Assembly: GCA_031278715.1 (NCBI GenBank)
Contig: JAITJW010000013.1
Coordinates: 1 to 44,053, forward strand
Reading direction: 5' to 3'
Source of the DNA: Treponema sp.
GTDB lineage: Bacteria > Spirochaetota > Spirochaetia > Treponematales > Breznakiellaceae
DNA length: 44,053 nt
The position numbers were made by a program, and so were the translations under genes. Position 1 is the stretch's first letter, and every line of letters begins with the position of its first letter. Positions 20 to 40,352 of this stretch are shown here, piece by piece. The notes under the pieces are model-generated. The model had not been told where the DNA came from, searched no databases, and worked only from the letters and a program-made list of their open reading frames with translations.

Positions 20-758
20 ATTCTCATTAGTATTTCATGATATTGGCTGGAATATATTACATTCCTTTACATATAATTATGGACTGAATTTTGTTGGAGC
101 TGGATTGGAAACATTGGTATTGATAGCAACGGAAGTTGATTGGAATTGGAGGAATGTTTCATATAATAATACATGGTTATCAAATATTGGACGACCAGGT
201 TTATATATTGGTTATACCGTTCCTGTTATAACGCCAATTACAACATATATAATTGGCAGGGCTATGAAAGATGAAAAATTACAAATAACAAGTTTTGCCT
301 TAATGCAAACACTTATGTTAACATTGGCTATACAAACACCATTAAAAATGATAACAGGCAGAACTTTACCGGGGATTGTTACGGAACTTGATCATACGAG
401 GAATTCACGAAGTGATAATTTTAGTGATGAATTTAATTGGTTTAATAAAAATTTTATTGGCGGTTGGCCTAGTGGCCATACGGCAAATGCTTTTGCTGCC
501 GCAGCAACAATATCAGAAATTTACAATGACAAATTTTTGCTAAAATTAGGTTTGTATTCATATGCATTCTTAATTGGCTTTGGGACTACATTGGATGTAC
601 ATTGGGCATCAGAAGCTATAGCCGGTGTATTAATAGGCTATGCAATAGGAAAATCTGTTGGAAAAAGTTTCAGTAAATTATTGGAAAATAAAAGAGATAG
701 CGAACGTTTCTCTTTTTATTATTCTCCCAATACAATAGGAATAATAATAAAAATTTAA
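18..758 (+). CDS. PAP2-family membrane phosphatase, 5'-partial
   Basis: Likely membrane-associated phospholipid/undecaprenyl-pyrophosphate-type phosphatase of the PAP2 superfamily. The frame is open from the poly-C edge, so the true start lies outside or is lost; the first possible internal start is a TTG at 105 without a clear ribosome binding site. The three PAP2 signature blocks appear in order: KMITGRTLPG (block 1, variant of KxxxxxxRP), PSGHTANAF (block 2, SGH) and DVHWASEAIAG (block 3, His kept, with Glu where Asp is usual). Hydrophobic stretches lie between them. The gene is very AT-rich with A/T-ending codons, unlike the GC-rich genes from 1044 onward, which suggests recent transfer or a different source sequence. 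Family call fairly sure; substrate unknown. Confidence 0.75.
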   Translation, partial: PFSLVFHDIGWNILHSFTYNYGLNFVGAGLETLVLIATEVDWNWRNVSYNNTWLSNIGRPGLYIGYTVPVITPITTYIIGRAMKDEKLQITSFALMQTLMLTLAIQTPLKMITGRTLPGIVTELDHTRNSRSDNFSDEFNWFNKNFIGGWPSGHTANAFAAAATISEIYNDKFLLKLGLYSYAFLIGFGTTLDVHWASEAIAGVLIGYAIGKSVGKSFSKLLENKRDSERFSFYYSPNTIGIIIKI

Positions 759-768
759 GATAGAGCTA

Positions 769-793
769 TTCCCAAAACTTCAGTTTTTGGGAA
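769..793. terminator. Stem-loop after the phosphatase gene
   Basis: Nine-base perfect inverted repeat TTCCCAAAA / TTTTGGGAA with a seven-base loop, 10 bases after the phosphatase stop. There is no strong T run after it on the plus strand, so it is a possible terminator or a small REP-like element. Confidence 0.45.
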
Positions 794-825
794 AGCCTCG
801 ATATAAAAGAAAAAACGTCGTATAA

Positions 826-1038
826 CAGGCGGTAAAGCGGCGGCAGGCGGCGTTGGCTGCCTCTTATGCCAGCAGGCGGACAAAAGTGGCACGGGCCTAT
901 CTGGGCAGCAACAATTATGTGTCCGCCAGTTCTGAGGTATTTTTTAACGACCCCGATGATTACCGGTATATTTTCCCCTGTATGACTCGTAGCATTACTA
1001 CGGTGATAGACCACTTTGAGGAATACCTGGAAGAATAG
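826..1038 (+). CDS. Small unrecognised reading frame, possibly a gene remnant
   Basis: Open frame after the TAA at 823. Possible starts are the TTG at 853 or none at all; no ribosome binding site is visible. It would encode about 61 residues from 853, ending in an acidic segment HFEEYLEE. Composition is intermediate between the AT-rich segment before it and the GC-rich nif-like genes after it. I recognise no family. It ends 5 bases before the stop of the convergent NifK-like gene. The lack of a start and the abrupt left boundary fit the 3' remnant of a larger gene lost at the junction between the AT-rich segment and the chromosome. It could also be non-coding. Confidence 0.3.
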   Translation, partial: QAVKRRQAALAASYASRRTKVARAYLGSNNYVSASSEVFFNDPDDYRYIFPCMTRSITTVIDHFEEYLEE

Positions 1039-1043
1039 TGCCT

Positions 1044-2354
1044 TTACGGAAGTACGTACCTCAATCCGTTAAGTATCTGTTCAAGGAGGAACAGGGCCCC
1101 CTGTTCCCCCAGGAAGGATTTCTCGGTTACATCAACGTAACTGAGGGAAGGCATGGCAATTTCAATGCCGCAGAACCGCTGCCCTTCAAGGCGCAGGGCG
1201 GCGATGGTGTTTGCATCGGCAAAAAGCAGATGGCAGGGGGAACTGATGACGGAACTTGTCAGGGCGCCGCCCCGGTTAATCGAATCGAGGTAAGTTTTCA
1301 ACCGGGGAACAAAGGGGCTTTCCCCTTCATCGTTGAGGGAGATCGCCTGGGGGATCATGCCCAGGTAGGAACTAAGCCACCTGGTCAGGGTATAGGCCGT
1401 GGAAGCTTCGGCCTTGACTGAAAAAAGCGCCCCTTTGGGGAACCCCAACATTCTGGTAAAACGGGCCAGGAAACGGTAGGCCCGCGCACGGGCCTCTCCG
1501 GTACGTTCCAGCGCCGGGGAAGGGTCCATGTCCAGGGCGGCGCAGACCTGCCGGAGGAAGCCCTCGGTGGCGTCGAAACCCACCGGCGGACCGGCTTCCA
1601 CAATAAGCGCCGGCGTGCCGTACTTGGCCCGGAGTTTCTCCGCCAGATACGCGCCGTATTCGGGGTAGACTGCCACGTTCAGCGCCGCCTGCCCAAGGCG
1701 GGTAAAGGATGCCGCATCGTCCCCTGCGCCGGGAACGTTGAGCGTTTCTATACCGCAGAGGCCCAGGAGCCGTTTCAGGGCATGGCGGTCGCCTTCGTGG
1801 TAGCGCTGGTAAATACCGAGACCCAGGAGATTCACGGTCCCCGCCCGCCGCGCTGTTCCCGGTAAGCCCGGCGGTCCGGCAAGGACATCTATAGCCGCGG
1901 CAAGGGCACGCTGGAAGCCCGCGCCGAAATTCCCGGAAAACCCCGCCGTTTCCAGGGCAAGGCAGGGCACCCCTTGCACGGTCCGTTCCAGAAAGCCGCT
2001 CAGATCATCTCCGATAAGGGCGGCGCCCGGAGAATTGACCAGGGCAATAAGCCCGTGGCCCTGTCCTGCTACCATGCGGAGCAGCCGTTCCAGTTTTTCC
2101 CGGCCCGAAAAAACATAATCATTACCGTCCAGGTATGTCGTGGGGATCCGGGGCATGCCGAAGTGGAATTCGCTGCGGAAGATCAGGGGATCCTGCTCAA
2201 AATTGTGCTGAAACTGACTCTCCGAAATGGCGCTGTGGTAAAATTTGCAGCCTGTGGGACCGTTGAGTACCGTACAGGAATCCCGTATCCCCTCCAGGGC
2301 AAAAAGCGCGCCGGAGAAACTGTCAGGCGTAATGTTTTCGGAAAAGGCCCTCAT
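1044..2354 (-). CDS. NifK-like subunit of a nitrogenase-like complex
   Basis: Nitrogenase component-1-type protein, about 436 residues. Start chosen at ATG 2354 ([10 protein letters not shown]), preceded by GGTGGAAGAAAG; an in-frame TTG at 2372 would add six residues. Family marks: ALFALEGI near residues 17-24, [11 protein letters not shown] around residues 31-41 (equivalent of the NifK HGxxGC block, Cys36), [12 protein letters not shown] (equivalent of the NifK STTC...IGDDL block but without Cys) and a C-terminal Rossmann-like half. Of the three NifK P-cluster cysteines only one (C36) is kept: the first position reads Asp/Ser, the third has lost Cys; an extra Cys is at 27. It overlaps the end of the NifH-NifD fusion by about 32 bases, so the two are translationally linked. 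A partner of the NifD-like half is inferred; the reaction is unknown. It is too short and lacks the N-terminal extension of true NifK. Confidence 0.85.
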
Positions 2355-4658: not shown

Positions 4659-5384
4659 ATGAGGGGAGTTTTCCGGCGCCGTCTTTTTTTTGCCCTGGTG
4701 GTCTTGGCTTTGCCGGCGGGCCTGGGGGCCGGGGACATGGTGGAACCGGCGGCCGCGGAAACCGCTTTCACCGGCAGTTTTACCTGGTCGTTCCGGGGGA
4801 CCCTCATGATCTTCCCGGAGGAAAACGGTCCCGCATCGGGCGCTCCCATGCCCCTGCTGTCCGTCCCCGGTGCGGCTTTGGCGTACCGCTTCCGGGAGTC
4901 CTGTGAGGCGGAATTTTCCCTGGACCTGTACCTTACCCGCTACGGCTACGACTGGAAACTTGACCGGCCGGTACCTGTAGAGCTGGAAAACCGTTCCGCC
5001 TTTGTGCTTGGGGCCCTGGCCGGTGTGCGGCTGGGGGTGTATGTGCCCCTGGGCAGCCGGGGGATTCTGCGGATCTACGCGGGTCCGGCGGCGGATCTGC
5101 GTCTGGTGCTGCTTGCCGCGGACTTGAACGAATCGGATCTGATACCAAACGACCCTTCAGGCGCCCCCATGCAGACCAGCGCGGTACGGAATTATTTTTG
5201 GGCCGGGGGGCGCTGGTTTCTCCCTTTTGCAGGCGCCGGTTTTGATATTCCCGTAAATGACGATCTGCTTGTGGGGATCGACTTCCGGGTCTGGTTCCCG
5301 GTCTACCGTTGTTGGACCGGGGAGGATCTTCCCCCGCTGGAAGGCTGGCGCTTCGGTCCTGCGTTCAAAATTACGCTGCGCTAG
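4659..5384 (+). CDS. Predicted outer-membrane/periplasmic protein with signal peptide
   Basis: 241 residues, no family recognised with certainty. The N-terminus MRGVFRRRLFF followed by a hydrophobic stretch and an Ala-rich end (GLGAGD, then AAAETA) is a typical Sec signal peptide. The rest is rich in alternating aromatic/hydrophobic strands and ends in an aromatic-containing strand (FGPAFKITLR), the pattern of a small beta-barrel or OmpA/treponemal outer-membrane protein. The start ATG follows GGAGC with short spacing. It is divergent from the nif-like operon and convergent with the alpha-xylosidase; its TAG stop at 5382-5384 lies within the left arm of the hairpin at 5381-5457. Function unknown. 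Confidence 0.7.
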   Translation: MRGVFRRRLFFALVVLALPAGLGAGDMVEPAAAETAFTGSFTWSFRGTLMIFPEENGPASGAPMPLLSVPGAALAYRFRESCEAEFSLDLYLTRYGYDWKLDRPVPVELENRSAFVLGALAGVRLGVYVPLGSRGILRIYAGPAADLRLVLLAADLNESDLIPNDPSGAPMQTSAVRNYFWAGGRWFLPFAGAGFDIPVNDDLLVGIDFRVWFPVYRCWTGEDLPPLEGWRFGPAFKITLR

Positions 5385-5457
5385 CAGCCTGTTGCCCGAT
5401 TATTGGGCATGCTTGCGGCGATGCCGCTTGGCAGTTTGTTGCGCGACAGGCTGCTAG
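5381..5457. repeat. Long hairpin between convergent genes, with both stop codons in its arms
   Basis: Arm CTAGCAGCCTGT (5381-5392) pairs with ACAGGCTGCTAG (5446-5457), and an inner GCGGC/GCCGC stem can form around 5415-5427. The TAG stop of the plus-strand gene (5382-5384) and, on the other strand, of the alpha-xylosidase (5454-5456) both sit in the CTAG tips. It probably works as a two-way terminator. The arms match the dispersed motif AACAGGCTGYYAG found elsewhere in the window. Confidence 0.8.
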
Positions 5458-10999: not shown

Positions 11000-12619
11000 A
11001 TGCGGGTATTTAGCTACGTGCCCTTTGGGGCTTCGGGGATCGTGATCAAGGTGGAGGTGGATGTAAGGCGGGGTATTCCGGGGGTTGATATTACCGGTCT
11101 TGCGGAGGGGGCGGTGCGGGAGGCGCGGGAACGGGTCAGGGCGGCCTTCCGCAATTCAGACTACCGGTTTCCCCTGGACCGGGTTCTTATCAACCTGGCC
11201 CCCGCGGGACTGCGGAAGGATGGCGCCGCCCTGGATCTGCCCATCGCCCTGGCGGTGATGTGCGCGACGGGGCTGGCCCCCCAGGAAGAGGCGGTGATGG
11301 TGTTGGGAGAACTGGAACTTTCCGGTACGGTACGGCCCGTGCGGGGGGTACTGGCCGCGGTAGCCGCGGGGATTGGGGAGGGTATCGGCGATTTCATTGT
11401 TCCCTGGGAGAACGCCGGGGAGGCGGAGGTTCTGGTACGGGAACACGGTTCTATCCGGATAGCCCCGGTAACGACGCTGCGGGAAGCCCTGCATGTTCTG
11501 GTGGTCCGCTCGGAAACCGGAACCCTGCCGGTTTCGGCGTTTTCCCCGGAATATTCCGGCGGGGAATCCGTCCGGGGAAACCGCGGGCTTCCAGCCGTGT
11601 GGGGGGATTTTTCCGAGGTACGGGGCCAGGACAGGTACAAACGGGCCCTGGAACTAGCCGCCGCCGGGGGGCATAACCTCTTGGTTTTCGGCCCCCCCGG
11701 GGCCGGTAAGACCATGCTTGCCCGGCGCTTGCCTGCGATTATGGCCGGTTTGACAAGTGATGAGGCGGTAGAAGTAACCCGGCTTCACAGCCTGGCGGGG
11801 TGTTTTGACAGGAAATCCCGGGAAAGCGGGGATTTTAGCCTTATTACCCGCCCTCCCTTCCGCTCTCCCCACCATTCCGCCAGTGCGGAAGGTATTCTGG
11901 GGGGCGGCAGGATGGTACGGCCCGGGGAGATAAGCCTTGCCCACCTGGGAGTACTTTTTCTGGACGAGGCCCCGGAATTCCGTTCCACCGTACTTCAGGC
12001 CCTGCGGGAGCCTCTGGAAGATCGGGTGATTACGATATCCCGCGCTGAATCTTCGATTCGGCTACCCGCAGCTTTCCAGCTGATCATGGCCGCCAACGCC
12101 TGTCCCTGCGGCAGACTGGGCGCGCGGGGCGGGGATCCGTCCTCCGGCCAGGTATGCCTGTGCAGCCCTGAAGAGGTAAACCGCTATTGGCGGCGTTTCG
12201 GTTCGGCCCTGCTGGACCGGATTGAACTGCGGGTCCCGGTGATTCCTCCCGGCCTTGGGGAGATAACGGGGCGCCCCGGTGAAACCAGCGCCGTCATCGC
12301 CGGGCGGGTTATCCGGGCGGTGGAAATACAGCGGGACCGGCTGGGCGCTCTGCCGGAACAGCCCTGCCGCAATGCACGGCTCCCGGCGGGCCTGGTGGAA
12401 CGGTACTGCCCCCTTTCCGGCCGCGCAAGGCAGGCCCTTGGAATCGCCGTATCCCGCCTTGCCCTTTCCGGCCGGGCCTACCACAGTATTCTCCGTCTGG
12501 CCCGGACCATTGCCGATCTTGAAGGCCAGGATAGCATTGACAAGGTTCACGTACTGGAGGCGGTGGAACATCGCCGCCGGGGGGATGACCCTTACGACAT
12601 ACTAGCGGAAGGCTGCTAG
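11000..12619 (+). CDS. comM: ComM/YifB-type Mg-chelatase-like AAA+ ATPase
   Basis: 539 residues, a little over the usual ~500. Hexameric helicase/branch-migration ATPase that in transformable bacteria helps integrate foreign DNA; its role in spirochaetes is not established. N-terminal Lon-substrate-like domain (FGASGIVIKVEVDVRRGIPG...), then the ChlI-like AAA+ domain with Walker A GPPGAGKTML, Walker B VLFLDEAPEF and the sensor segment MAANACPCG with the usual Cys. Start ATG preceded by AGGGGGTATAC. The last residues LAEGC and the TAG stop are encoded by units 1-2 of the 14-bp repeat array beginning at 12602, so the natural C-terminus has been replaced or trimmed there. Confidence 0.95.
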   Translation: MRVFSYVPFGASGIVIKVEVDVRRGIPGVDITGLAEGAVREARERVRAAFRNSDYRFPLDRVLINLAPAGLRKDGAALDLPIALAVMCATGLAPQEEAVMVLGELELSGTVRPVRGVLAAVAAGIGEGIGDFIVPWENAGEAEVLVREHGSIRIAPVTTLREALHVLVVRSETGTLPVSAFSPEYSGGESVRGNRGLPAVWGDFSEVRGQDRYKRALELAAAGGHNLLVFGPPGAGKTMLARRLPAIMAGLTSDEAVEVTRLHSLAGCFDRKSRESGDFSLITRPPFRSPHHSASAEGILGGGRMVRPGEISLAHLGVLFLDEAPEFRSTVLQALREPLEDRVITISRAESSIRLPAAFQLIMAANACPCGRLGARGGDPSSGQVCLCSPEEVNRYWRRFGSALLDRIELRVPVIPPGLGEITGRPGETSAVIAGRVIRAVEIQRDRLGALPEQPCRNARLPAGLVERYCPLSGRARQALGIAVSRLALSGRAYHSILRLARTIADLEGQDSIDKVHVLEAVEHRRRGDDPYDILAEGC

Positions 12620-12755
12620 CGGAAGGCTGCTAGCGGAAGGCTGCTAGCGGAAGGTTGCTAGTGGAAGGCTGCTAGTGGAAGGCTGCTAGCGGAAGGCTGC
12701 TAGCGGAAGGCTGCTAGCGGAAGGCTGCTGGCGGGAGCTTGCTAGCAGGAGCCTG
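12602..12755. repeat. 14-bp tandem array with CTAG in nearly every unit
   Basis: Eleven units of CTAGCGGAAGGCTG, nearly identical, the last two degenerate. The array fills the whole gap between convergent comM and the PHP gene. The comM TAG lies in unit 2 (12617-12619) and the PHP stop in unit 11 (complement of 12742-12744). CTAG is self-complementary and 14 is not a multiple of three, so successive units place stops in all six frames. The unit contains AGGCTGCTAG, the arm of the hairpin at 5381-5457. Confidence 0.97.
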
Positions 12756-13710
12756 ACAGCGGAGCTGACAGCTCCGGTATGGCCTCCAGTATCGAATCTT
12801 CGATTGGCCGGCCTGCGCAACTGTGCCCCAGGGAACGGCCGGGCCGGTTTTCCCCGTGGAAATCACTGCCGGCGCTGACGTAAAGCCCCAATTCCCGGGC
12901 TATCTCCTCCAGGCGGCGGCACTCCCGCAGTTTGGCAGTGGGGTGCCATGCCTCAATACCCGCAAGCCCCCGGTTTTTCAGGTCTTCAAACAGGGCCGGG
13001 AGACGATTCAGGGACACATAAAGGGACATGGGGTGGGCCAGTACCGGCAGCCCCCCGGATTCCCGGATAAGGGCCTGGGCCTCGTCAAAGTCCAGCCCGG
13101 CCTTGGGGACGTAAAGGGGCTTTCCCGGCGTCAGGTATCGCTCAAAAGCCTGTTCCTGGTTCTTTACAATTCCCCGTTTAATCAGCAGGGCGGCAAAGTG
13201 GGGCCGTCCTATCGAGGGGACCGGCCCGGCGTTTTTTGTGCTGGACTTCTCCCCCAACTTGGCCGCAGAATCCCTCTGAGCAAGTAACAACAGATCTTCC
13301 CAGCCGGCATCCAGCCCCATTCGCCTTACACGCTCCAGAATTTCCCGGTTCCGCTCCTCCCGCAGCCGTGAAAGCCCGGCCACCGCCTCGATAAACGCGG
13401 GGCTTGGCCGGCTGATCCCCAGCCCCAACAGGTGGAATTGGCCGGCATACGGGTGGTTTATTTCAATCTCAATCCCCGGAATGAAGCGGATACCAAGTGA
13501 TTCCGCTTCATTTCTTGCAAACGATAGTCCCTTAATGCTATCATGATCGGTAAGGGCTATAGCGGAAATTCCAAGGCGGACCGCTTCTCTGATAAGTGAA
13601 ACCGGACTTAGGCTCCCGTCCGAAGCGTTTGAGTGGGTATGCAGGTCTATCATTGCAGTCATTATGGGCCTAAAACTTAAGGAATGATAACGGGGTTCTC
13701 GTTGAAACAT
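12742..13710 (-). CDS. PHP-domain metal-dependent phosphoesterase (TrpH/RNase AM type)
   Basis: Up to 322 residues. PHP family; E. coli RNase AM (TrpH) is a 5'-3' exonuclease on RNA and phosphorylated nucleotides, so a nuclease or phosphatase activity is expected. Metal-binding motifs: IDLHTHSNASDGS, ALTDHDSIKG, PGIEIEI, LPVLAHPM and SAGSDFHGE. The core starts at MIDLHTHS; ATGs at 13653 (best fit to family N-termini) and 13662 compete with 13710, and none has a good ribosome binding site. There is an insert of low complexity around LGEKSSTKNAGPVPS. The C-terminus LSGSC and its stop come from the tandem array shared with comM. Confidence 0.88.
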   Translation of the reverse strand: MFQREPRYHSLSFRPIMTAMIDLHTHSNASDGSLSPVSLIREAVRLGISAIALTDHDSIKGLSFARNEAESLGIRFIPGIEIEINHPYAGQFHLLGLGISRPSPAFIEAVAGLSRLREERNREILERVRRMGLDAGWEDLLLLAQRDSAAKLGEKSSTKNAGPVPSIGRPHFAALLIKRGIVKNQEQAFERYLTPGKPLYVPKAGLDFDEAQALIRESGGLPVLAHPMSLYVSLNRLPALFEDLKNRGLAGIEAWHPTAKLRECRRLEEIARELGLYVSAGSDFHGENRPGRSLGHSCAGRPIEDSILEAIPELSAPLSGSC

Positions 13711-17304: not shown

Positions 17305-17362
17305 CCGGCCATCCGGCCATCCGGCAACCGGAATCCGGCAGCCGGAATCCGGCAGCCGGAAC
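17305..17362. repeat. Intergenic short tandem repeats, 8-bp and 14-bp units
   Basis: Two CCGGCCAT units (17305-17320) are followed by three 14-bp units (17321-17334, 17335-17348, 17349-17362) of CCGGCAGCCGGAAT type. Each unit can fold on itself through CCGG steps. The 199-base stretch 17247-17445 holds this and the tRNA promoter; I see no gene in it. Confidence 0.9.
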
Positions 17363-20859: not shown

Positions 20860-22551
20860 TTAACTCCAGAAAGAGCGGTAACCCGCCGGATGGGGAACGG
20901 GGTGTTTGGTTTCCCAGTCCCCGGCAATATCCAACAGGGTCCCCTCCGCGAAGGCCCGGCCGATAAGCTGGACCCCAACGGGGAGTCCCCCTTCTACGGC
21001 GGCGGGGAAGGACAGGGCGGGGAGGCCCGCCAGGTTTGCGCAGCAGGTGTAGAGGTCCGCGGCTTTTTGGGCAAAGGGGGAGAGGGAACTGGCACCCCGG
21101 CCAAAGGCCCTGGTGGGGAATACCGGGAGGAGGATGGCGTCACAGGGGGCCGCCGCACGGTAATCGCCGTCTCCCAGGAGGCTTTCAAAATCTTTCCGTA
21201 TGGCCGAGCGGATCCGCTGGGCCCGCAGGTAGTAGCGGTCCTGAAAGCCGGAACGGAGTACGAAGGTCCCCAGCAGGATCCGCAGCTTTACTTCCGGCCC
21301 AAAACCCGCTTCCCTGGTCTTGTCGATAAGTTCATCGGGATTCTCCGCCCATTCCGGCCGGGCCCCGTAACGGACGCCGTCAAAGCGGGCCAGGTTGGCG
21401 CTGGCCTCCGCGGTGGCGATGGTGTAGTACGCGGGAACTCCGTATTTCAGGCTGGGGAGTTCCACCTCCACCAGGCGGTAGCCAAGTTCCGCAAAGCCCG
21501 CCCTGGCGGACTCAAAGGCCCGGCGTACCTCCGGTTCCAGTTCCGCCGCCTGGGCCGCGACCCCCAGGGCCGCCCCGGCGGTTTCCGGGCTTTCGCGGTC
21601 CTCTGCGGTACGTCCCCCTGCGGAGGGGGAGGCTGTGGAGCGTTCCTCCTGGGCGGCCAGGGCAATGGCCCGTGCCACCGCCTCCGGGGAGAGAACCCCG
21701 ATGGTCCTTGCCCTGGGGGGATTGAAGAGGGGCGGCGCCGCCTCCGGGGCGTTCCGGCTGGTCTGATCCAGGGGGTCCGCCCCCCGGATTACGGCGAACA
21801 CGTCCCGGCAGCGGCCGGCTGAATCCGAAAGGATGCCGATCCCTTCAAGACTGGAGGCGTAGGCCACCAGGCCGAAACGGGACACGGCCCCGTAGGTGGG
21901 TTTAAGCCCCAGGACCCCGCAGAAGGCCGCGGGCTGCCGCACCGAACCCCCGGTATCGGATCCCAGGGCAAAGGGTACCAGCCCCGCTGCTACCGCGGCC
22001 GCCGAGCCCCCGGAAGACCCCCCCGGTACCCGTGTGGTATCCCAGGGGTTGTTTGTCCGCTTGATGCCGGAGTTGTCGGTGGAGGAACCCATGCCGAACT
22101 CGTCCAGGTTGGTTTTCCCCACCGGCGCCGCCCCGGCATCCAGGAGTTTTTTTACCGCCGTGGCGGTGTAGGGGGCTTTGAGCTGTTCCAGCAGTTTGGA
22201 TCCGCAGCTAAGGGAAAAGCCCTTGACCGCGATGTTGTCTTTTACCGCAAAGGGCAAACCTTTTAAGTTTGCCCAGGGCAAACCTGTTAAGTTTGCCCAG
22301 GGCAAACCTGTTAAGGCTGCCTTGGGTAAATCCTTTAAGGCTGCCTTGGGCAGATCTGAAATGTCTGGTCGATCACGGTCCGTGGTCCGGGCCGGGTCTG
22401 TGGTCCGGGCGGGATCCGCTGAATCCGCGGCACCATCCCCGGTCCGGCCGTAATTTTCCGCCCGCCGGGGGTCAAATTCAATAAAAGCCCCGATTTTCTC
22501 TTCCCATTGGGCAACGTAGGATAGATAGTCCTGGGGCGCTTTGAATGACAT
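20860..22551 (-). CDS. gatA: Asp/Glu-tRNA amidotransferase subunit A with repeat insertions
   Basis: 563 residues against ~485 normally. Amidase-signature glutaminase supplying ammonia to GatB. Catalytic triad complete: Lys104 (FAVKDN), cis-Ser179 (PGGSSGGS) and Ser203 (DTGGSVRQP), each displaced by the same 25 residues from S. aureus GatA (79, 154, 178). The extra length has two parts: residues ~46-98, made of DPARTT and LPKAALTG/LPWANLKG repeats (an 18-bp and a 24-bp minisatellite) directly before the conserved LPFAVKDN; and a low-complexity insert around residues ~300-335 (QEERSTASPSAGGRTAEDRE). Both stay in frame. GAGGAACCC precedes the ATG. Expected to be functional. Confidence 0.95.
   Translation of the reverse strand: MSFKAPQDYLSYVAQWEEKIGAFIEFDPRRAENYGRTGDGAADSADPARTTDPARTTDRDRPDISDLPKAALKDLPKAALTGLPWANLTGLPWANLKGLPFAVKDNIAVKGFSLSCGSKLLEQLKAPYTATAVKKLLDAGAAPVGKTNLDEFGMGSSTDNSGIKRTNNPWDTTRVPGGSSGGSAAAVAAGLVPFALGSDTGGSVRQPAAFCGVLGLKPTYGAVSRFGLVAYASSLEGIGILSDSAGRCRDVFAVIRGADPLDQTSRNAPEAAPPLFNPPRARTIGVLSPEAVARAIALAAQEERSTASPSAGGRTAEDRESPETAGAALGVAAQAAELEPEVRRAFESARAGFAELGYRLVEVELPSLKYGVPAYYTIATAEASANLARFDGVRYGARPEWAENPDELIDKTREAGFGPEVKLRILLGTFVLRSGFQDRYYLRAQRIRSAIRKDFESLLGDGDYRAAAPCDAILLPVFPTRAFGRGASSLSPFAQKAADLYTCCANLAGLPALSFPAAVEGGLPVGVQLIGRAFAEGTLLDIAGDWETKHPVPHPAGYRSFWS
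22252..22416. repeat. 24-bp minisatellite (plus 18-bp pair) inside gatA
   Basis: Four clear 24-bp units at 22252-22275, 22276-22299, 22300-22323 and 22324-22347 plus a degraded fifth to 22371. Units 1-2 have GGGCAAAC and GTTTGCCC at their ends, so each can form an 8-bp hairpin. Two 18-bp units follow at 22381-22398 and 22399-22416. All are in frame and encode LPWANLTG-like and DPARTT-like peptides. Confidence 0.95.
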
Positions 22552-22612: not shown

Positions 22613-23017
22613 TTACAGGACATTGGGCACTACCACAAAGCGGCCGTCCCGTTCGCCGGCGCTGTCGAGCATCTGTTCGGCGGTCTGTGCCCTGCTAGCG
22701 GCCCCATTCCCCTTGTCCGCTGCCCCATCAGCCCTGAACCAGAGGGAGTCGACGATCCGGGCCACGGCGGAGATCCCCGCCGCGTGTGTTTCCGTTACCG
22801 GAATTTCCGTTGCCGGAATTTCCGTTACCGGAAATTCTGTTGCCGGACTTTTCGGTAACGGGGTTCCCAGGGCGGGGGGCGTTTCCCGATCCGCTACCTG
22901 CATGGCGGTAAAAAAGCCCAGCATCTCTTCAAAAGCCGCAAACGCGCCGGAAAGCTCCTCATCGCCCAGATTCAAGTGGGCCAGGGCGGCGGTTTCCCTT
23001 AAATCCTCAATGTTCAT
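22613..23017 (-). CDS. gatC: Asp/Glu-tRNA amidotransferase subunit C with repeat insertion
   Basis: 134 residues against ~95-100 normally. GatC is the small belt protein that wraps GatA and GatB. N-terminal half MNIEDLRETAALAHLNLGDE and EEMLGFFTAMQ match GatC, and the C-terminal part (RIVDSLWFRAD then MLDSAGERDGRFVVVPNVL, the usual ending with R-x(2)-FVVP) is present. Between them sits a ~25-residue insertion of five PVTEI/PATEI-type units encoded by a 15-bp repeat, followed by Ala-rich sequence. GGAGAAGCC precedes the ATG. First gene of the operon, 61 bases upstream of gatA. Confidence 0.93.
   Translation of the reverse strand: MNIEDLRETAALAHLNLGDEELSGAFAAFEEMLGFFTAMQVADRETPPALGTPLPKSPATEFPVTEIPATEIPVTETHAAGISAVARIVDSLWFRADGAADKGNGAASRAQTAEQMLDSAGERDGRFVVVPNVL
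22789..22863. repeat. 15-bp minisatellite inside gatC
   Basis: Units of TTTCCGTTACCGGAA at 22789-22803, 22804-22818 and 22819-22833, with degraded units to 22848 and 22863. Each unit has TTCCG...CGGAA ends that can pair. In frame, encoding PVTEI/PATEI peptides on the minus strand. Confidence 0.95.
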
Positions 23018-26510: not shown

Positions 26511-27251
26511 TTGAAACCTGCGGCGAAAAACCATATTCTGGTAATACTGGTGGAACACCAGAGTACGATTAACCCGAACATGGCGCTGCGGTTTTTGATG
26601 TACATGGCGCGGGTATACGAGAAGATTCTGGGAGATAAAAACATTTACACGACAAAGGCGCTTGTTATACCGCGGCCTGAATTTTTTGTGCTGTACAATG
26701 GGCTTGCCCCCTATCCGGATGAGGATATACTGAGGCTGTCCGATTTATATGAAGATCCGGAGCAGCTGGGGCTGGAGAAGGCGCTGGTAGAGATGGAACT
26801 TGTGGTGGGGGTGATCAACATCAACCAGGGACGGAACGAGATAGTAAAGCGCTGCCGGGTGTTGGAGGGGTACAGTGACTTTATCGGGAAGGTAAGGGAC
26901 ATTGAAAGGGAAGGGATGAAACGGGAAAAGGCCTTAGAATCGGCGATAGTGTATTGCCGGGAGCATGACATATTGAAGGGGGTTTTGGAGGAACACGGGA
27001 CGGAGGTAATGAACATGTTGATGGCGGAATGGAAACAGGAAGATGCGTTAGCGGTACGGTACCGGGAGGGCCGGGAACTGGGCCACGAAGAAGGGTTGAA
27101 AACTGGACTTGAAAGAGGACTTGAGAAAGGACTTGAAAGAGGGCTTGAAAAAGTCGCCAGGAACGCCCTTGTGAAGGGGATGTCCCCGGACGCGATCAGT
27201 GAACTTACCGGGTTGGACAGTACAGCGATCAAAAGACTTGCGGGACAGTAG
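26511..27251 (+). pseudogene. Rpn-family nuclease/transposase-like protein, 5'-truncated
   Basis: 246 residues from a TTG with no ribosome binding site. Middle matches the Rpn (recombination-promoting nuclease, PD-(D/E)XK) family: ILVILVEHQSTINPNMALRF, where Glu and Gln belong to the catalytic motif, and FLMYMARVYEKIL. The usual N-terminal ~50-60 residues carrying the first catalytic acid are absent: the frame runs back only to the MATE stop. The C-terminus has the typical GLERGLEKGLERGLEK repeats and a small helical end. Such genes are common, multi-copy and short-lived in treponemes. It may be dead, or a shortened form using a new start. Confidence 0.75.
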
Positions 27252-30109: not shown

Positions 30110-31329
30110 TGGGCAGTGTGCCTGACCGCAGGCCCGCGGTTCTTTCTTCTGCGGTCCTTCCTTCCGCGGATCTTTTTTCATCGGATCTTTTTTCAGCGGA
30201 TGCCCTTTCCGCGGCCTTAGCCATAGACCTGCAGTGGTTTGCCGCGGAAGACGAGGGCCGTACCGAGGAGCCTTCGGAACTCAAGTTAAGGCGGGCACGG
30301 GAAGAAGAAGGCCGGGTTGCCAAGAGTCAGGAACTGATCGGCGCGCTGGGCCTCCTGTTCCCGGCCCTGATCCTGGCCTTCCTGGGACCTTCCATGCTCA
30401 GAACCAGCGTAGAGATGCTGCGTTTCTTTTTTACCCGTGCTGTTGAACTGGACCCGGTGGAGGACCGCCTGGTGGCGGGGCTTTTTTTCCGCTATTTTAT
30501 CCGTCTTGCCCTGCCCATCGTTACCGTGGGGATGCTCGCGGGGATACTGTCCAACCTGGTGCAGACAGGTTTTATATTTACGGTCAAACCCCTGGTCCCC
30601 AATTTTTCCAGGGTACTGCCCCACTTTGGCCAGTACTTCAAACGGACTCTTTTTTCCGCAGAGGGCCTGTTCAATTTTATTAAGTCCATCCTCAAAATGG
30701 CCATCATCGGTACGGTGGCCTTTCTCCTTATCCGCTCGGAACTGGATCGCCTTGTCAACCTGCAGACTGTAAGCCTGTGGACGGGGATCACGACCATCGC
30801 TTCCCTGGCGATACGGATGCTGATCATCAGCGCCCTGTTGCTGCTCATCCTCTCCGTGCCGGACTACATGTTCCGGCGCTGGCGGCATCGTGAAGACCTG
30901 CGGATGAGCCGCGAAGAGGTAAAAGAGGAACGGCGGCAGTACGAGGGGGACCCCTATGTACGATCCCGGATCCGCGCCCGAATGCGGCAGATGATGAGCC
31001 AGAACATGGCCGCCAATGTCGCCAGGGCGGATGTGGTGATTACCAACCCGACCCACTTCGCGGTGGCCCTGGAGTACCACCGGTCCATGCAGGCGCCCCT
31101 GGTTACCGCCAGGGGGGAGGACGAGGCGGCCCTGTTGATCCGCCGCATCGCGCGGGACAAGGGGGTGCCGGTGGTGGAAAACCGCCCCCTGGCCCGGGCC
31201 CTCTACGCGGAAACCGATGTCGGAGATTTTGTTCCCGTTGCCTATTGGCGGATCGTGGCTACTATTTTGAGCAAGGTCATGAGCGTCAACGAGGCGCGGC
31301 GCCGCAGGGAAGAGGCCCTGCGGGCGTAA
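30106..31329 (+). CDS. flhB: Flagellar export switch protein FlhB with repeat-expanded N-terminus
   Basis: 407 residues against ~355-380 usually. The family-like start is IDLQWFAAEDEGRTEEP (~40-56); before it stands an extra ~38 residues made of AVLSS/ADLFS-type pentapeptides encoded by a 15-bp repeat. Four membrane helices follow, then the cytosolic domain with the autocleavage site NPTH at residues 314-317 (ADVVITNPTHFAVALEY), which sets substrate specificity from rod/hook to filament. Translationally coupled to fliR by the ATGA overlap. The extension should lie in the cytoplasm before the first helix; it may be tolerated rather than useful. Confidence 0.96.
   Translation: MMGSVPDRRPAVLSSAVLPSADLFSSDLFSADALSAALAIDLQWFAAEDEGRTEEPSELKLRRAREEEGRVAKSQELIGALGLLFPALILAFLGPSMLRTSVEMLRFFFTRAVELDPVEDRLVAGLFFRYFIRLALPIVTVGMLAGILSNLVQTGFIFTVKPLVPNFSRVLPHFGQYFKRTLFSAEGLFNFIKSILKMAIIGTVAFLLIRSELDRLVNLQTVSLWTGITTIASLAIRMLIISALLLLILSVPDYMFRRWRHREDLRMSREEVKEERRQYEGDPYVRSRIRARMRQMMSQNMAANVARADVVITNPTHFAVALEYHRSMQAPLVTARGEDEAALLIRRIARDKGVPVVENRPLARALYAETDVGDFVPVAYWRIVATILSKVMSVNEARRRREEALRA
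30136..30210. repeat. 15-bp minisatellite in the flhB 5' end
   Basis: Five contiguous 15-bp units: 30136-30150, 30151-30165, 30166-30180, 30181-30195, 30196-30210. All share GCGG/TCGG starts and T-rich middles; units 3 and 4 differ by one base. In frame, each encodes a pentapeptide of AVLPS/ADLFS type. Confidence 0.96.
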
Positions 31330-39734: not shown

Positions 39735-40352
39735 ATGACGGTACAGGTTATTTTTTCGCTCGCTACTCTGTTGCTTTGCGCTGTTTTCTTTGTCTATGCC
39801 CATATATACATCCGGCGGCAGACCAGCCGGGAGAGTATCATGGCCGCTTACCGTGAAGAGGTAAGCCGCCTTATCGCGGAGATTGACCACGCCACCGACC
39901 GGGACACGCAGTTAGTGGAGGAACGGATCACCGCGCTGCGGAAGATCCTCGAAGAAGCAGACCACCGGATTGCCCTCATGTCCCGTGATATGGAAAAACG
40001 CCGTTCCGCCACGGAACTCTACACCGCCCTGGGAACCCGCCAGCCCGCCCCCGCCGCTTCGCCCCCCGCAGAACAGGCCGTAAACAGCTTCACCCCGGCA
40101 GCCCAGCCCCTGCCAGGCCAAGCCCTGCCAAGTCAGCCCCTGCCGGGCCAAGCCCTAACAGGGCAAGCCCCAACAGGGCAAGCTACGAACAGGCAGACCC
40201 CGGACGGCGCCCCATCCCTCCCCACCCTTAGCCAGCGGGTACTGGAACTTTCCCGGCAGGGATTTGCGGAAGAACTCATCGCCACCCGGCTGGGCCTGAG
40301 CCGTGCGGAAGTGGAACTGACCCTGGCCGTTTCCCGCCGCACGGGGCACTAA
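39735..40352 (+). CDS. SwrB/DUF6115-like membrane protein with repeat-expanded linker
   Basis: 205 residues. One N-terminal membrane helix (VIFSLATLLLCAVFFVYAHI), a coiled coil (REEVSRLIAEIDHATDRD; EERITALRKILEEADHRIAL), a Pro/Gln/Ala linker built from seven 15-bp repeat units (QPLPG/GQALT/GQAPT type), and a C-terminal helix-turn-helix-like end (VLELSRQGFAEELIATRLGL). This order, and the place just after fliA and fapA, recalls Bacillus SwrB, which activates the export gate; the link is by architecture only. GAGG precedes the ATG. Confidence 0.72.
   Translation: MTVQVIFSLATLLLCAVFFVYAHIYIRRQTSRESIMAAYREEVSRLIAEIDHATDRDTQLVEERITALRKILEEADHRIALMSRDMEKRRSATELYTALGTRQPAPAASPPAEQAVNSFTPAAQPLPGQALPSQPLPGQALTGQAPTGQATNRQTPDGAPSLPTLSQRVLELSRQGFAEELIATRLGLSRAEVELTLAVSRRTGH
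40101..40205. repeat. 15-bp minisatellite in the SwrB-like gene
   Basis: Seven 15-bp units from 40101 (GCCCAGCCCCTGCCA) to 40205, e.g. GGGCAAGCCCCAACA. The GGGC...GCCC core of several units can pair. In frame; encodes QPLPG/GQALT pentapeptides. Confidence 0.95.

Follow-up and report, generated by a model that had tools for sequence, protein, structure and literature searches.

How does a short tandem repeat come to end two convergent genes, and what has it done to the proteins that they encode? The question is raised by a 14-bp minisatellite in the window, by which we mean the whole 44,053-nucleotide stretch of Treponema sp. DNA analysed here (contig C146 of genome G000). The array lies between comM (11000-12619, plus strand), a complete gene for a YifB-family Mg-chelatase-like AAA ATPase identified by Pfam, NCBIfam and its open reading frame, and a convergent gene for a PHP-domain phosphoesterase (12742-13710, minus strand) identified by profile matches and its open reading frame. 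The initial annotation had proposed that the array stops all six frames and ends both genes, that it has thereby replaced both natural C-termini, and that it grew from a copy of a dispersed hairpin motif. The first part of this reading stands, but neither the replacement of the C-termini nor the hairpin origin does.

The array itself is real. Read directly unit by unit, 14-bp units follow one another at 12602-12755, and TRF reports period 14 at 12602-12746 with 10.4 copies, 93% matches and a score of 241; head-to-tail units within roughly 10-100 bp are what defines a bacterial minisatellite. Unit 1 (12602-12615, plus strand) is the native 3' end of comM, namely the codons L-A-E-G followed by TG, and units 2-10 (12616-12741) are tandem copies of the same 14 bp. 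Units 1-3 and 7-9 match CTAGCGGAAGGCTG exactly and units 4-6 differ from it by one base each, all of units 1-9 being within one mismatch. Unit 10 is CTGGCGGGAGCTTG and unit 11 (12742-12755) is CTAGCAGGAGCCTG; beyond the annotated limit there is also a decayed unit 12 of 12 nt, ACAGCGGAGCTG, at 12756-12767, which today is coding sequence within the PHP gene. Units 2-12 have no strand assigned. As annotated, the present comM stop, TAG, lies in unit 2 (12617-12619), and the PHP frame passes through unit 12 into unit 11, where it stops on the minus strand (12744-12742).

The six-frame stops are likewise confirmed, but they are unremarkable. The CTAG of the unit gives TAG on both strands, and since the unit length is not divisible by 3, every frame is stopped within the array. 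The same outcome is obtained for 13.6% of the 14-mers in the window if each is arrayed 11 times, and we therefore rejected the idea that the stops are a designed property. CTAG is rare in the window, with 23 occurrences against 98 expected, ten of them inside the array and 13 outside.

Could the array, or its length, be an artefact of a metagenome bin? The assembly (2.74 Mb) is in 213 contigs and 84% complete, and the number of copies may be wrong. That the array itself is false is unlikely, however: units 4-6 and 10-12 can be told apart by their variants, the genes on both sides stand in their conserved neighbourhood, and the array has no matching second locus in the genome. We consider an artefact very improbable overall. 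The nearest named relatives of the genome are the Treponema sp. metagenome bins Cd354_bin14, Cd354_bin128 and Im510_bin46, which we take to be termite-gut assemblies. The array was found in one of 200 genomes of the family, that of the window, which is the one genome of its species in the comparison; the other 199 have none, and no second locus was found in this genome, the genus or the family.

The genome is rich in minisatellites. Twenty stretches of its contigs, 428 kb in all, with a simple longest-ORF rule for calling genes, hold 59 tandem arrays, among which the present one has the top score; the period is divisible by 3 in 37 of the 42 coding arrays. In the window, in-frame coding minisatellites lie at 22251-22315, 22789-22851, 27105-27150, 30136-30201 and 40108-40170 (periods 24, 15, 12, 15 and 15), several of their units appearing self-complementary. 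An intergenic 14-bp array with self-complementary units ATCCGGCAGCCGGA lies at 17319-17361, about 85 bp upstream of tRNA-Thr, and a degenerate 14-bp array on contig C2 (locus L187, 2046-2110) crosses the 5' edge of a called ORF (654-2054, minus strand).

The state of the locus before the array can be read from a relative in the same genus, G005 (locus L014, the same as L041), which has TTAGCGGAAGGCTGA at the homologous place and no array. In the comM frame its junction reads ATA TTA GCG GAA GGC TGA AAG CTC CGG, so that ComM ends in ...DPYDILAEG* and, on the opposite strand, the PHP protein ends in ...PELSAFR*, the PHP TAA being the complement of the comM TTA. The two genes thus overlap tail to tail by exactly 15 bp, each stop lying inside the other gene, and they serve as our model of the ancestral state. 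The G005 overlap, TTAGCGGAAGGCTG followed by A, is identical to the array unit at 13 of 14 positions, with one substitution. Aligned with G005, the window junction shows a single uninterrupted insertion between highly identical flanks, and if 12616-12767 is removed from the window, joining 12615 to 12768, ComM ends in ...DILAEG* and PHP in ...PELSAFR*. Both are the G005 ends, which argues that the array grew in place from the overlap.

These comparisons also show how little the proteins have changed. With the array, ComM ends in ...LAEGC*, one Cys more than without it; its TIGR00368 match (495.9 bits) covers residues 3-525 of 539, and its domains are complete up to residue 525 in both Pfam and NCBIfam. 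The PHP protein ends in PELSAPLSGSC instead of PELSAFR, its last two residues having given way to six. The natural C-termini are therefore nearly kept, and the comparison of C-termini that the initial annotation had suggested finds in G005 a relative with the same ends and no array.

A tree of ComM places the window together with G002 (support 100/99), and G005 and G001 come next. Sister G002 has no overlap; a hairpin-type element begins at its comM stop, and the ends of its comM and PHP genes are on separate contigs, where non-homologous sequence continues past each gene. Because this sister has lost the overlap, the evidence for one in the direct ancestor comes from G005 and from the reconstructed empty site. 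The Leu codon at the homologous place is CTA in unit 1, TTA in G005 and CTG in G002, where there is no overlap. We infer that the CTAG of unit 1 is the former PHP stop; the Leu codon would be CTA because it is the complement of the PHP TAG.

A convergent PHP gene lies within 3 kb at 25 of 59 comM loci, the window's included, and five of the 25 pairs overlap. In relatives without the array the distance ranges from -58 to 1228 bp, several having 24-61 bp gaps or overlaps. At seven loci (L016, L017, L029, L044, L047, L052 and L055) the gap holds a BrnT toxin gene, an identification confirmed by Pfam in L016 and made by eye, from similarity, in the other loci; in some relatives a BrnA-like gene follows, with a weak Pfam match below the cut-off in L044.

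We conclude that the array is very probably a young minisatellite born in place, in which the comM/PHP overlap was tandemly duplicated and then expanded. The ancestor would have had a tail-to-tail overlap of 15 bp, CTAGCGGAAGGCTGA, with comM ending in CTA GCG GAA GGC TGA and PHP, on the other strand, in TCA GCC TTC CGC TAG. Fourteen base pairs of it would have been duplicated by replication slippage or unequal exchange. A single duplication would be enough to separate the genes: comM would read from GGC into the CTAG of the next unit and stop (...LAEGC*), and PHP would stop in the unit on its own side. The array would afterwards have expanded to about 12 units. Since every regular unit has TAG on both strands, gain or loss of units alters neither protein. 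Most likely, then, the array is a tolerated spacer that is insensitive to copy number and serves no function of its own.

How the first duplication arose is suggested in part by G005, where a direct repeat AGC...AGC spans the overlap at a distance of 14 bp and may possibly have primed slippage. A repeat as good as this occurs by chance in 16% of such stretches, and we set it aside as proof of slippage, keeping it as suggestive. Slippage at AGC predicts a 14-bp duplication whose second copy starts with ACAG, and unit 12 fits. Units 2-9, however, have CTAG junctions rather than ACAG, and simple AGC slippage would need an additional step. This could be a first duplication that was blunt at CTAG/CTG, or a change that spread along the array later.

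The CTAG junctions lead to the dispersed hairpin from which the array had been thought to derive. This REP-like, palindromic family with CTAG ends has the form CTAGCAGCCTGTTG...CAGGCTGCTAG, with a copy in the window at 5381-5457; exact CTAGCAGCCTGTTG occurs 49 times in the window genome and 32 times in G002, and the reversed pattern not at all. Exact copies are present in all six other genomes of the genus too. In the 428 kb sampled, the flanking gene takes its in-frame TAG stop from the element at 15 of 33 element ends, and none of the 33 is inside a gene; of 29 genes that end in CTAG, 15, or about half, do so at an element. A link of the family to RAYT/Y1 transposases is possible. The genome has two Y1_Tnp (PF01797) genes, L167 (C26:489-788) and L168 (C49:4522-4824), and no copy of the element was found within the flanks examined of either.

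The 10 nt AGGCTGCTAG are indeed common to the array and the arm of the 5381 hairpin. Six of these bases (AGGCTG), however, belong to codons native to comM, which G005 has without any element, and the rest are the former PHP stop. The array has direct units only and not the two inverted arms of the element (CTAGCAGCCTG / CAGGCTGCTAG or CAAACTGCTAG); the full hairpin arm is present at 5381-5457 and absent from the array. Unit 1 is the 3' end of comM in frame, matching G005 at 13 of 14 positions, so that the unit comes from the host gene, and we rejected the view that the array is a copy of the hairpin.

The element might instead have seeded the array. On this account it was inserted after comM GGCTG, bringing a second CTAGC to a distance of 14 bp from that of comM; slippage between the two CTAGC copies then amplified the interval, and the remaining element was lost. 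This would account for the unit junctions being CTAG and not ACAG. It would also account for the AGGCTGCTAG common to the array and the element arms, a match which CTAG plus ten random window bases gives in about 0.16% of cases, and in sister G002 one of these elements does lie at the comM stop. Nevertheless, the unit body is native comM and not element, neither the array nor the sequence next to it holds any of the element past the shared 10 bp, the element of G002 joins at another position, after GGC (GGCTAG against GGCTGCTAG), and G005 has the overlap with no element. We regard seeding as unlikely, and would give a small role of the element in creating the CTG|CTAG junction a similarly low chance.

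A further question is whether the array has been selected as a 3' structure, as REP elements at gene ends may be, its hairpin protecting comM mRNA, blocking read-through or separating the transcription units. It is located between convergent genes, as is the hairpin element at 5381-5457, and its plus-strand RNA has a predicted fold of -83.7 kcal/mol (z -5.1 against dinucleotide shuffles), a long hairpin that forms because the 10-bp CUGCUAGCGG pairs with itself. Against such a role, when the bases of the unit are permuted at random and arrayed 11 times, 8% of the permutations fold equally well; folding of the minus strand is much weaker; no intrinsic terminator (a G+C-rich stem with a T run) was found in 12400-13000; several relatives cope with the short gaps or overlaps given above; and the array occurs in one genome. 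Selection for a 3' structure thus seems quite improbable, and a neutral spacer is the most economical reading.

Among the known systems that the array resembles are the intergenic minisatellites or VNTR loci of bacteria, with which it shares short tandem units, a homogeneous core, decayed ends, a likely origin by slippage and, outside genes, a period that is not a multiple of 3. It differs in having as its unit a former overlap, with a stop for both of the genes that once shared it. Mycobacterial MIRU elements also are repeats on overlapping gene boundaries, but MIRUs are longer, are dispersed and sit between genes that run in the same direction. The REP-like elements of the genus (CTAGCAGCCTGTTG...CAACAAACTGCTAG) are similar in their gene-end location, in CTAG ends that are often gene stops and in the shared 10 bp; they are dispersed over many loci, with two inverted arms and a variable loop, whereas the array has no such arms, occupies a single locus and consists of comM sequence. 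Convergent pairs with overlapping stops use the tetramers CTAG, TTAG, CTAA and TTAA (PMC2174442), and the two-strand stop in the array's CTAG is this known 4-bp solution. Gain and loss of overlaps through movement of stops has been discussed (PMC4161906); in the present case an ancestral overlap of 15 bp would have been resolved by tandem duplication, not by a stop-moving point mutation. The titles and abstracts of the literature searched mention neither minisatellites born at convergent overlaps nor this array or the CTAG element in termite Treponema.

The array is a neat but ordinary bacterial minisatellite, and reading it so corrects the view that it replaced natural protein ends or came from a dispersed hairpin family. 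Together with its array-less relative, it offers a worked example of how a minisatellite with a period that is not a multiple of 3 may be born at a gene boundary with neither gene harmed, and of how a convergent overlap can be undone by duplication instead of by mutation of a stop codon. Tentatively, tandem duplication of a tail-to-tail overlap might even be a general one-step route by which convergent gene overlaps end, although we think this doubtful; if so, the duplicated segment would carry a stop for each strand, the proteins would be left nearly unchanged, and the spacer would be free to grow or shrink.
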